NCBI GenBank assembly: GCA_027603945.1
Contig: JADIIU010000001.1
Span: forward strand, 186,001-250,000
Source: Terramyces sp. JEL0728
Taxonomy: Eukaryota; Chytridiomycota; Chytridiomycetes; Rhizophydiales; Terramycetaceae
Direction: 5' to 3'
Length of the DNA stretch: 64,000 nt
The notes below the pieces were generated by a model. It saw only the letters and a list, made by a program, of their open reading frames with translations, ran no database searches and was not told the DNA's origin. A program made the translations under genes and the position numbers. This document shows positions 40,646-57,612 of this stretch, piece after piece (within the stretch, counting starts at the first letter, position 1; every line of letters begins with the position of its first letter).

Positions 40646-40672
40646 TTTAATTTATTCTCTCATGTCAGTTAA

Positions 40673-41754
40673 TTAATACGGAATTCTCTATTGTTAAATA
40701 TATCTTACCTGTAAATCCAATTCTTCTTTTACCGTTTCGAATGTTTTCAACATCTTACGTCTCGCACCTAAAGCAGCAACACCTCTCTTTTCTAATTGCT
40801 CGTCAGTCAGCTTGACAATATCTCTCCAGTCATCATTTTCAAAGATTGTAGTGTACTTGTGCAAACGCAGCGATCGGAACCAGGAGGGAATATCTTGAAT
40901 AAGCGCTAAATTGAGAGGCTCGGCAGGTTTTGATTTATCTCGTGGCAGTGTCGCAAGTTCATCATCTTCTTCCTGTCTAGGACGTGGTCGTGGCAAACTG
41001 CCGCCTACCTGTCTTGGGGCGATCGCAATATGTGAATTTGGATTAGGTTTTTCCACAGCAGGTGAAACAACTTGTACAGGCGTAGAATTCAAAGAAGAAG
41101 TTCTTTGAGTAAATTTGATTGACCAATCTTCTTCCTTGGGAGATTCTTTCTTTGCTGGCAAGTCGGACAATGTATCTTCCTCTTCGTTCGTTGAGCAAGT
41201 GGAAGAGCGTAACAGTGAGTGAGTTCTCACTTCAGATGATAAGCGTCCATTAGAATTTGGTCTGGCGTACAATCTTCCGCCAGTGCTATCATCGGACATG
41301 ATTGAGGTTGGTCTGGAGATGATTGAAACTGAAAGGGGGTCGAGGCTGGCATCTTTTGCAGCCATTTGTTGCAGGACAGTAATAAAAAATCTAATTTGCA
41401 ATGGGGTCGTGCCTTTCAACAAAGTATATATACATACCGTCCTTTCTGGGTCGGTTAGCACCCTGAACCAGTTTTCAATGGCTTGCAATTCATCTTTGAA
41501 ACTGTCATCAAGTTTTGTATTCGACATATCTTCCAGTGTTTTTTCGTAGTAACTCAAATCTTCAAACCATTTATCGATTGCTAGGTTAAATCATCGATAC
41601 CTTGAGCTTCATCGGATTTATATTGCGGAAAATATTGTTCTGAATTTGGCCGTTGGTGATATGAATGCCTTTGAGCAGTATATTCCAGCTGTGCGGAATT
41701 GGGACGGCTTAATGTGATTGGATTTTCCATTGAAAGGTGTCTTGGATTGGACAT
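40673..41754 (-). CDS. VTS1: VTS1/Smaug-like SAM-domain RNA-binding protein
   Basis: Post-transcriptional regulator that binds stem-loop elements and recruits deadenylase. Exons 41601-41754, 40709-41580 and 40673-40687 (introns 20 and 21 nt) give 346 residues; the last exon encodes only four residues. The N-terminal VTS1 block is [10 protein letters not shown] and [16 protein letters not shown] with FFITVLQQM. The C-terminal SAM domain is [20 protein letters not shown] and [14 protein letters not shown], with the RNA-binding Lys-Arg residues kept. The middle is Ser, Pro and Arg-rich. Confidence 0.9.
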
Positions 41755-47423: not shown

Positions 47424-48574
47424 TTATTCTCCAGGAAAAATGCTTGTACCAAATGGATGGGTAGTTGCAGCTGAAATATCTGTGCATATTTGCGAGTCCA
47501 ATTTCCACACAATCATTCCAACTATTCCTCTGTAGAGGCATAACGTAGCAGCTACCACAAACAAGTGCCATAGTTGATGACTATTGCCAATAATGTCACA
47601 TTTCCCAATAAAGAATCTCGTTAGCAATTTCTTACTTTTCAGGTATCCGATTCACATAGAAAATGGCTCCAACTATATACAAGCAGATCATCAACGACAT
47701 GTAAATGAAACCTGGATTATCACTGGAGTCTGGAAAATGCTGAAATCCATGCTTAGCCAGGTAGTATCCAACCGGGAATACAATCACTCCACCACTTGAT
47801 ATGTATATTAACGACCTCCAAGGTCTGAACGAACCTCGAGTCCAAATCGGAAACATTGGGCCTGCGTCAAATGTAACTAACCTATGATGCCCACCAAATT
47901 GACTATTCCCAGGGAGATCATGATTGCTGTTCTGAAACCACCTTCGCAATGCAGTAGGAAATACATGGAGCTTATTGTACCCCCTGCAATCAACGCTGAA
48001 ATCCCGCCTTTTGTTAATAACAAAGTACTGTAATCTAGGGTTAGCTGCAATATACCTAAACATCCCCAAAATAAATAGGCAGGCTCGGATACGCATAAAT
48101 GTAAGTGAAATAGAGATGAAAACAGCATGGTGTAGCAGGCACAGGATAGTAATATAGTTAACACTAACCGTTCTTCTAATTCTATAAGAGGGTGAATTTC
48201 AGCAAACCAAGCGTGAAATAATAAGCCTGCAAACAACAAAAATCCAAGAAAGTGCGACCAGATGTTTCCCTTTGATGAGTAATTATTACTGATTCGTTAT
48301 GTACATGAAAAAATGACAACCAGGACGCTTTATAGCTGTAGTATGCACGATAGCTGTCATTATTTCTAAATTACCCAGACCTGATATAATCATTATCCTG
48401 CATATACTTGGGCACACTGTCGTAATCGTATAAAATTAATCGCGACTTTGAAACCCAAGAAGTTTGCGATTCTGGCAACGAAATCGTTCGGTTTATCGAC
48501 ATTGGCGATTTGGGTATATTAGACTTTTTCATTTTAAGCCGGAATTTAAGAGACTGCTTGGGACTGCTTGACAT
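47424..48574 (-). CDS. PAQR/adiponectin-receptor-like protein, copy 2
   Basis: Paralogue of 342 residues. Exons 48375-48574, 48290-48353, 48056-48269, 48029-48034, 47882-48007, 47636-47861 and 47424-47616; introns 21, 20, 21, 21, 20 and 19 nt. The fourth exon is only 6 nt (ATTACA). It is needed to encode Asp-Tyr-Ser of the conserved CLDYSGISALIAGG, including the catalytic-type Asp. Other motifs are WLSFFHVHNES, LFSSLFHLH and SHQLWHLFVV. The N-terminal tail is basic and polar, similar to copy 3. The stop TAA lies inside AATAAA. Confidence 0.88.
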
Positions 48575-55204: not shown

Positions 55205-56563
55205 TTATTGCATTATGTGCTCCACAGCGTCGGACACACTCTTAAATTCCTTGTCAAGTTTATATTTTTTCATAGTCTCCCTCATCTTGGTCTTGTCACC
55301 TCCTTGGTAATACTGGCTCAGCAACTCCAGCACGATTGTGCAATTCCTGGTGTCGCCCACTGTACCGCTATTTTCTGCCTTTTTTTCATTCTTATTGATC
55401 ACTTTGTTGTACAACTTATCAATGGTCATAGAGCGAATGTCCAACTTTGGCCTGGTTATTTCGGGTGGAGGAGTATGCGATTGCTCAGTGTTCATGTATT
55501 GTGTTGGGTCTTGAATCAATAGTGGTTTATAGACAACAGGGTTGGATTCTACTAAATCTTCATATTCAATATTAACTTTGGTTTTTTGCCGCTTGTTTAC
55601 AATTAATTCAGAGTGCCTGTTGAACTTTCGAATTAGTGACTTTGACTCCTTGATCTTTCCTGGTTTCATTGTGATATCAGGAGAGTTGCCAGTTTCCAAA
55701 TGATCTTCGGTCGTAGACACAAGGTCCAACAGCTTGTTTTGCGCTTCATATATGAGCTCCTGATCAATATCTTGGTATTTGGTAAAAATATCATGCTTTT
55801 CATTCTTCTTTTTAAAGTACTTCCAGGTAAAATATTCTGAATTAGACATAAGCAACCTTTCCAAAATTCATCTTCCTTCATCTTGTCTGGCACATTTTCC
55901 TTGTACGCTTTTTCGATACCAGGATATTCTGTAAAAATAGAGTGTATAATATCCGCATCTACAACAACTTTCAAATCACTCCCTACAGTTATGACTACAA
56001 ACCATCGGCATCAACTGGTTTGACGTCCGCTAATAATATTGAAGTTGTTCCTTTCTTTTGGGATATCTGATGTTCCTTCTGTGCTAGCAAACCTTGTTTA
56101 TTTTGCCAGAATTCCTGTTCACTGAGAATTCCAGAAATTACTCTGATTAACTACAACTAACCCAATTCTTTGTGTAGGAATTCAAAATTGTTATCGCTTT
56201 TTAAAATCGTTTTTCTTGATTCAATCTGTACTTTATCCAATTTCACTGCGAGTTTTTCCTTGAGTAATTCCACCACTAAATTCATTTGCGCTTCCGTTTC
56301 AAAATTAAACCTGATTAGTTCTCCAACATCCAACTGCAAGATGTACTTTTTCTTGTTGACTTGCTGCTTTTGAATTTTTACTAGTGGGATCTGTATACTC
56401 GGTTTATTGGTGTTTTCTTCAGTCTAGTTAATCTATACATACCTAGATTAGCTATTGGCTACCTATAATTAGTTGGATCCTACCTATAGTTAGCAACAAA
56501 TACCCATGTGAAGGTATCGGTAATTTCAATCTTTCCCCGTCGCTTTTTGAACAATCCAAACAT
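55205..56563 (-). CDS. TFB1: TFIIH core subunit TFB1 (p62, GTF2H1)
   Basis: Subunit of TFIIH for transcription and nucleotide excision repair, 405 residues. Exons 56504-56563, 56162-56423, 56003-56140, 55857-55982 and 55205-55836. The first gap (80 nt) consists of four intron-like units; the others are 21, 20 and 20 nt. It has a PH-like N-terminal region and then two BSD domains: SGILSEQEFWQNKQGLLAQK with SQKKGTTSILLADVKP, and EFWKEYFTWKYFKKK (made by splicing), followed by a helical C terminus. Shorter than yeast Tfb1 (642 residues). The stop TAA lies inside AATAAA. The start is 14 bp from the divergent COX10 start. Confidence 0.92.
56424..56503 (-). other. Four tandem intron-like units without exons between them
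   Basis: Read on the minus strand, the 80 nt between TFB1 exons 1 and 2 divide exactly into units of 20, 21, 20 and 19 nt at 56484-56503, 56463-56483, 56443-56462 and 56424-56442. Each starts GTA, has an internal TAAY branch-like motif (TAAC, TAAT, TAAT, TAAC) and ends TATAG, TATAG, CTAG or CTAG. Each alone looks like a normal intron of this genome. Removing all four joins TGG to ACT in phase 0 and keeps the family frame; removing fewer units leaves in-frame stops. It may be excised in steps or as one unusually long intron. Confidence 0.85.
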
Positions 56564-56577: not shown

Positions 56578-57612
56578 ATGCAAAGATTTCGAATTGGCTG
56601 CAAAAATATTGCCAGTCCAATTATAAATAGTTTAAATACAGCTAGAATCAGTATCCGGACAAGAAGTTACAGCGATATCAATAAGGAATTCAGCGGTTTG
56701 AAATTTAAAGAAATCAAGTACAGTCCAACTGTTTACAGAGACCTTTCAAAAATGAAATTGTCTGCGTTTGTGTTATTGACGACAATGGCTGGATATGCTC
56801 TTGCTCCAGGCGTTTCCACCGCTGGCACATTGCTATATACATGTCTGGGAACAGGGCTTTGTATATCGTCTGCGAATGCAATTAACCAGTGGATCGAAGT
56901 ATTTTGGATTAATAGTAGGTTCCTTACGATGCTCAGATGAGCAGAACTAGAGCTAGAGTGCTAGTGAAACAAACGATTACACCAACCCACGCATTTTTGT
57001 TCGGGACAATATCAGGAGCAGTAGGAAGCACAATCTTGTTTTTTATTAATCCTTACTGCGGATTTTTGGGGCTGGGAAACATTATCTTGTACACTTGTGT
57101 CTACACCCCACTCAAAAGAGTATCCATTTACAACACATGGCCAGGTAAATACACCTAATATAGGCGCGGTAGTTGGAGGAATACCGCCAATGATTGGATG
57201 GATCGCATGTACTGGAAGTGTGGATGTTGGATCGATTTTGCTTGGGTTGTACTTGTATGCCTGGCAATTCCCACACTTCAATGCGCTGGCATGGCTATTG
57301 AGGCCAGATTACTCAAAAGCAGGATACAAAATGATGTCTGCGATTGCCCCAAAACTAAACGCTGCAGTTTCACTGGCACACAGCGTATCCCTATTTCCTC
57401 TTTCATTTGCATTTTATTATTACGATATAGTTTCCTGTTGGTTCTTGTTGGATAGTAGCATCATCAATTTATACATCACATGGTTTTCCATAGTGTTCAT
57501 GAGAAGCAGCGATCCAAGTGCAAGGAAATTGTTCTTTGCCAGTTTGATTCATCTACCTATTTATCTGTGTTTATTGCTCCTGCACAAACAAGATGAAGAA
57601 GAAAAGTACTAA
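56578..57612 (+). CDS. COX10: Protoheme IX farnesyltransferase COX10
   Basis: UbiA-family enzyme of the mitochondrial inner membrane making heme O for cytochrome oxidase, 331 residues. Exons 56578-56898, 56919-57144 and 57164-57612 (introns 20 and 19 nt). The Arg-rich start (MQRFRIGCKN...ISIRTRSYSD) suits a mitochondrial signal. The first prenyl-diphosphate site is NAINQWIEVPYDAQMSRTRARV, completed by splicing, and a later one lies near DYSKAGYKMM. Multiple membrane segments and YTPLKRVSIYNTWPGAVVGG fit the family. The stop is TAATAAATAA. Confidence 0.94.

Follow-up and report, generated by a model that had tools for sequence, protein, structure and literature searches.

The window (the whole 64,000-nt stretch of DNA analysed) comes from a Terramyces assembly of 15.0 Mb in 231 contigs and carries on its minus strand the gene for TFB1/p62, in which a single intron position is occupied by 80 nt of unusual make-up. 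The features of the gene are listed below, with the intron-model scores of the four units of the 80 nt ranked among the introns of 18-24 nt that were called in 264 kb of contig C1.

55205..56563, minus strand: TFB1/p62 gene; spliced protein of 405 aa with a BSD domain and a PH_TFIIH-like N-terminus
56504..56563, minus strand: exon 1, MFGLFKKRRGKIEITDTFTW; start codon at 56563-56561, p62 N-terminal alignment from residue 15 on
56484..56503, minus strand: unit 1, GTATTTGTTGCTAACTATAG, complete and intron-like, 20 nt; donor right after TGG (W20); score 10.9, 93rd percentile
56463..56483, minus strand: unit 2, GTAGGATCCAACTAATTATAG, 21 nt; score 9.3, 65th percentile
56443..56462, minus strand: unit 3, GTAGCCAATAGCTAATCTAG, 20 nt; score 9.2, 64th percentile
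56424..56442, minus strand: unit 4, GTATGTATAGATTAACTAG, 19 nt; acceptor right before ACT (T21); score 7.9, 43rd percentile
56162..56423, minus strand: exon 2, TEENTNKPSIQIPLVKIQ..., from the gene-finder call and the p62 alignment
56141..56161, minus strand: single intron of 21 nt, called by the gene finder
55983..56002, minus strand: single intron of 20 nt, called by the gene finder
55837..55856, minus strand: single intron of 20 nt, called by the gene finder

Pfam recognises the BSD domain in the spliced protein (PF03909, E=8.7e-18) and, weakly, PH_TFIIH (PF08567, E=5.3e-5; 23.9 bits, below the curated cut-off of 27.1), and the protein aligns best to General transcription factor IIH subunit 1 (p62; E=8.6e-27). 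Excision of all 80 nt joins TGG to ACT (W20/T21) in frame, and the p62 alignment, weak at that end, passes over this junction without a gap. The in-frame join, the domains and the gapless alignment together point to both the identity of the gene and the intronic nature of the 80 nt. The 219-aa ORF that covers the 3' part of TFB1 gave no Pfam match on its own, and scans of the window with Rfam (at the gathering threshold) and for tRNAs returned nothing. A divergent gene, COX10-like by eye, starts on the plus strand at 56578, 14 bases from the TFB1 start codon; with their starts so close, there would be next to no promoter space for them to share.

On the minus strand the order, 5' to 3', is ...TTCACATGG / GTATTTGTTGCTAACTATAG / GTAGGATCCAACTAATTATAG / GTAGCCAATAGCTAATCTAG / GTATGTATAGATTAACTAG / ACTGAAGAA... 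In good agreement with the original prediction, units of 20, 21, 20 and 19 nt tile the 80 nt (56424-56503) exactly, and each begins with GTA, carries a TAAY motif (TAAT or TAAC) close to its end and finishes with TAG, leaving three AG|GTA junctions inside. All four have the GT donor, branch motif, AG acceptor and host-range size of a U2-type intron, and together they form a back-to-back array, that is, at least two complete introns separated by zero-length exons within a coding frame. Each of the 15 TFB1 forms that retain at least one unit, including the one with all four, runs into an early stop. The proposal of four back-to-back introns with zero-length exons is the best reading of the anatomy.

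The fungal context lends some weight to another composite structure, the stwintron, in which an external intron has one of its splice elements interrupted by an intron inside it: stwintrons are known in fungi, where they are removed consecutively and where one genome has 117 of them according to the excerpted source (PMC9024468). Each TFB1 unit, in contrast, possesses its own uninterrupted donor, TAAY and acceptor, with no donor, branch or acceptor interrupted by an internal intron, and the units abut at AG|GT, being neither nested nor sharing a G (AGT) as in the [D1,2] geometry described in that excerpt (PMC9024468). Since nothing is nested or interrupted, the array does not qualify as a stwintron, an explanation we consider very improbable.

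Introns were called on 264 kb of contig C1 by a gene finder of our own making, which combines a codon model, a self-trained intron model and Viterbi decoding; having been trained on its own calls from an initial motif rule, it is biased towards units of that kind. The host introns have the form GTA, then TAAY, then AG, and of the 462 called, 446 measure 19-22 nt and 454 fall within 19-24 nt. Only one, of 29 nt, falls between 25 and 58 nt. The window accounts for 148 calls including the four TFB1 units, 144 of them of 19-24 nt, so the claim that its other introns all measure 18-26 nt was nearly true; the exceptions are four calls of 59, 63, 68 and 87 nt, which are probably spurious, as they score at most 0.2 where the median is 8.4. 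The genome contains a U2 snRNA gene with GTAGTA. The gene finder also places pairs of 21-nt introns around exons of 6 and 8 nt (48008-48055 and 40659-40708, minus strand), which are possible microexons.

Could the tiling have arisen by chance in one intron, or through misassembly? The units are short and AT-rich, which makes the question a fair one. Order-3 Markov simulation of 15.84 Mb produced 59 two-unit chains and none of three or more units. A regular-expression scan of both strands of the 264 kb returned, besides TFB1, one further chain only, a weak pair. The 264 kb, a sample not picked by pattern, contain three array sites; besides TFB1, the gene finder called these two:

C1:92337-92376: two-unit array in ARL2
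C1:126215-126256: two-unit array in a RIC1-like gene

Among the 329 gaps between neighbouring introns decoded in the 264 kb, a length of zero occurs five times and lengths of 1-5 do not occur. Genome-wide, the pattern AGGTAN{13,19}AGGTAN{13,19}AGGTA has 61 matches, compared with 26 in a backwards control, and these matches fall into 36 distinct places. Of the 33 places that were read, 29 decode as at least two back-to-back units in a predicted coding frame; because the backwards control is high, it is on this decoding, and not on the count of matches, that the class rests. The other four places gave no array on decoding:

C75: a lone intron
C104: repetitive coding sequence
C51: about 8-9 units in a row when read by eye, lying beyond the gene that was decoded
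C215: two single introns separated by 21 nt

Given that no chain of three or more units arose in the simulated sequence and that 29 of 33 places decode as arrays, we take chance or artefact as refuted for the class and give it practically no weight for TFB1. Most array places come from patterns with an obligatory AGGTA and are thereby skewed towards intact junctions. Two looser two-unit patterns were rejected as genome counts: the matches to TAATN{2,4}AGGTAN{8,11}TAAYNNNAG (51, against 2 backwards) decode as arrays at only two of eight cut-out loci (L023 and L026), and its TAAC form (30 against 6 backwards) was rejected with it. For such patterns the backwards control is too lenient, since a match also results when a TAAT..AG happens to stand before a single intron. 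A further pattern, with 137 matches compared with 28 in its control, serves as a lead only, its matches being listed in part.

Arrays of 2-9 back-to-back introns lie in unrelated genes, among them PSMA6, ARL2, MGM101 and GPHR, the last with the biggest, nine units in 198 nt (a PDB search with GPHR found no match). Protein alignments are gapless across the four-unit array of PSMA6, the two-unit array of ARL2 and a two-unit array inside the GGGGRGMR of a pyruvate carboxylase-like protein, and the Mgm101p profile aligns 167 residues of MGM101 to 167 positions, with no net gap, across a four-unit array. Because the proteins are continuous across them, the arrays are introns of ordinary protein genes and not satellite DNA. 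On a 36-kb contig (locus L046, C128:21200-23300), two adjoining genes hold four micro-intron rows within 1.2 kb. A TFIIIC B-block-like gene has a row of seven decoded units, or eight if a 48-nt call is split, and the HOOK-domain gene beside it has rows of seven, three and, by eye, eight units, the last with five identical 20-nt units.

An alternative description of the TFB1 sequence takes the 80 nt as a single intron that uses only the outermost donor and acceptor, with the inner AG|GT junctions as relics or coincidence. It predicts an identical mRNA and is to that extent compatible with the sequence, and a unit with an apparently damaged acceptor in the L060 array also speaks for it: GTACAATTTAGATTAACTTTG (minus strand, 388-368) seems to lack a terminal AG before the next unit. 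This unit is possibly a decaying array member; if the loss is real, splicing there would have to span about 41 nt. Several observations oppose a single long intron. The inner TFB1 units score like single introns; 157 of the 158 decoded array units are 19-25 nt long, a size that both the search patterns and the gene finder favour; and, apart from the one 29-nt call among the 462, introns of intermediate length are missing between 25 and 58 nt. When introns of 31-160 nt were permitted, GTA..AG (34 calls) was no commoner than the backwards control ATG..GA (39) under a lax penalty, nor under a stiff one (19 against 21), and GTG..AG (30 lax, 14 stiff) and GTT..AG (33 and 18) showed no excess either, in a test of low power in which three extra long introns would be hidden in the noise. 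We therefore judge a single 80-nt intron improbable. Separately defined and removed units are the simplest reading, because each is a complete intron of normal size.

How such arrays grow can be judged from the resemblance of their units. In a set of 40 arrays and 158 units, compared without the GTA and AG ends, an identity of 70% or more is seen in 25 of 118 pairs of adjacent units, compared with 12 of 167 non-adjacent pairs of the same array and 1% of 5000 random pairs from different arrays. Mean neighbour identity is 0.59, against 0.477 (s.d. 0.009) when units are shuffled among arrays. For this set, L045 (the same locus as L026) was omitted and arrays with identical unit lists were dropped; long decoded units were split at inner AG|GTGACT, AG|GTATCTGA and AG|GCAAG; L032 and L033 were both kept, so that near-duplicates count twice; and a 58-nt remainder of L060 was treated as one unit. 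The array of PSMA6 contains three consecutive identical units. Two homologous segments of 5.8 kb, one on C37 and one on C56 (BLAST identity 97%, or 98.6% over ungapped columns), have five and four units, respectively, at the same position, the gap being one exact 21-nt copy. This copy-number difference is one case: a second array in these segments has three units in both, and among seven other duplicated pairs, three carry a two-unit array in equal numbers (98-99% identical) and in the remaining four no array was decoded.

Two further gaps between the C37 and C56 segments resemble short tandem duplications, so slippage may occur generally, and copies of whole introns may be those that a gene can tolerate. 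We also noted that segments of about 500 bases, 98-100% identical and roughly 10-60 kb apart on one contig, recur on C3, C18, C26, C36, C37 and C90 (L066-L075, L082, L083); they are either recent duplications or assembly effects.

The four TFB1 units themselves share 0.44-0.53 identity, the background of random introns, and the near-identical neighbours that mark recent duplication in some other arrays are absent. The original prediction had taken this dissimilarity to argue against simple duplication. For the class that argument fails, as neighbours elsewhere are identical or nearly so and the number of units differs in one homologous pair; given these observations, dissimilar arrays can also be accounted for by duplication and later drift, and an old duplication would likewise be expected to have lost its similarity. 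The companion suggestion of intron gain at splice junctions is supported for the genome-wide class.

Units might instead have been inserted successively at one AG|GT junction, as introner-like elements or by reverse splicing, without copying in place. In favour of this, AG|GT is a natural proto-splice site, and the TFB1 units are alike in their motifs only. What speaks against it is that the excess similarity is found mostly among array neighbours, that the sole length change seen (C37/C56) is an exact copy of a neighbour, and that the 446 single introns include no dispersed family: no pair among them (264 kb of 15 Mb) is at least 95% alike, and the near-identical copies at many positions that characterise introner-like elements are missing. 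The excess at lower identity is modest, with 206 pairs of single introns at 80%, compared with 141-154 after column shuffling, and 35, compared with 24-27, at 85%. Successive insertion is unlikely in our assessment, if worth keeping in mind. Both histories fit the TFB1 units; we favour duplication and drift over repeated insertion because the class shows duplication and the 264 kb contain no dispersed intron family. Judged by its class, this array would go back to an old duplication and have diverged since.

The exon sequence after the arrays bears on how copies could form. A raw comparison, in which the next exon begins with GT after 42% of the 40 arrays and after 8% of the 446 single introns, was discarded as biased by the AGGTA search, and the test was for that reason redone on GT[CGT], with four arrays dropped (L033, a near-duplicate of L032; and L060, L061 and one of L046, all three ended early by the gene finder). 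The following exon begins with GT[CGT] in 12 of 36 arrays and after 29 of 446 single introns (P=8e-6), and there is no difference for G[ACG] (8/36 versus 104/446). An AG precedes 18 of the 36 arrays and 104 of the 446 single introns, a comparison possibly biased in the same way.

We propose that a whole intron duplicates in tandem, aided by AG|GT at both of its ends. These would act as short direct repeats one intron apart, between which slippage or unequal exchange could make precise copies. Every copy would be a complete intron of a size that the spliceosome accepts, so that the mRNA would stay the same and the copies could persist, diverging over time save for their splice motifs, with TFB1 as an old array. 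Each unit of about 20 nt would be recognised singly, by intron definition, and removed in any order, for every removal would leave a valid donor or acceptor abutting the exon for the remaining units, as in recursive splicing. Judging from the sequence, separate, recursive-like removal of the TFB1 units may be expected; stepwise removal is plausible, and other orders would give the same mRNA. By eye, GC donors (GCAAGT) occur inside arrays directly after AG, in L056 at 419-546 and in L046 at about 1500-1530; GC is a known minor donor type.

Taken together, the 80 nt of TFB1 are quite likely four complete U2-type micro-introns at one intron position, with zero-length exons at AG|GT, removed separately and forming one of many arrays that grow by tandem duplication. 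With somewhat less confidence, we lean towards a broader proposal: that in this chytrid introns act as minisatellites, introns of about 20 nt being copied at AG|GT microhomologies into rows of 2-9 autonomous units that are removed one by one by a spliceosome unable to take a longer intron. Intron number would then go up and down by slippage with the protein unaffected, a neutral gain of introns that needs no new position.

The intron position appears to be shared with relatives. Terramyces TFB1 is 80% identical to the proteins of Boothiomyces sp. JEL0866 and B. macroporosus (Rhizophydiales, Terramycetaceae), and the deposited TFB1 proteins of the two Boothiomyces genomes miss 11 and 21 residues from exactly the array position on, going from FTW to IPLAKIQ or to VNKKK. 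It is as if an over-long intron had been placed at the same donor during annotation, which suggests, judged from the proteins, that the position is intronic there as well. The same proteins have inserts, GSLFLII in P0001 and GSRILTCRLLLLTA in P0002, near sites at which Terramyces has introns of 20-21 nt, and these are probably micro-introns read as exon. One may speculate that the P0002 insert, whose 14 residues or 42 nt amount to about two units, represents a two-unit array in that relative. Such cases are a warning for annotation: rows of micro-introns, as perhaps in the Boothiomyces TFB1 proteins, may pass as one long intron or as exon.

There are few proven cases of intron gain, and how it comes about is still an open question. 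The Terramyces genome presents what appear to be several stages of intron multiplication, namely identical copies, part-diverged and fully diverged rows (TFB1 being of the last kind) and a copy-number difference; if they are such stages, introns may multiply in place while the protein remains unchanged. The arrays are also natural substrates for asking whether an AG|GT can serve first as acceptor and then as donor for a spliceosome adapted to introns of 20 nt, and where the upper limit of intron length lies.

Among the matches listed in a search of the open-licence literature, there was no report of exon-free rows of whole introns; several described systems are related, and we compare them here as the excerpted sources present them. 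Recursive splicing in Drosophila (PMC8605326) uses ratchet points in long introns, where juxtaposed AG|GT forms an apparent zero-nucleotide exon and stepwise removal yields the same final mRNA. TFB1 has the AG|GT juxtaposition without the long-intron setting (80 nt in total, units of 19-21 nt), and, unlike at ratchet points, where that excerpt describes a cryptic exon as needed at the junction, its tiled introns of about 20 nt leave no room for one and arrays can have near-copy neighbours. Stwintrons, the spliceosomal twin introns of fungi, likewise combine more than one U2 intron in a complex intervening sequence that is removed in consecutive reactions, but they are nested, as a rule with one splice element interrupted in the excerpted description (PMC9024468), whereas the units here are whole, consecutive and up to nine in number. 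In fission yeast, gained introns are built of 24-nt repeats with AGGC (PMC4974935, PMC3629103), and the arrays resemble intron gain by tandem duplication, as excerpted there, both in the duplication itself and in that AGGT supplies the splice sites. The difference from the Rogers model in these sources is that there a duplicated exon segment becomes a new intron, while here an existing intron is copied beside itself, raising the number at an old position. In the Cryptococcus gene CNN00420, introns were gained by repeat expansion and the repeat number varies among strains (PMC2395259); identical introns within a gene and a variable copy number are common to both, but the CNN00420 introns lie in intron-containing repeats according to that excerpt, and here only the intron itself is repeated, no exon separating the copies. 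Finally, the polyubiquitin gene UBC has dual-specific AGGT splice sites (PMC10809524), tandem sites usable as donor and acceptor as in the arrays; in the excerpted account its units are coding monomers that give differing isoforms, whereas here the units are introns and the mRNA would be the same.
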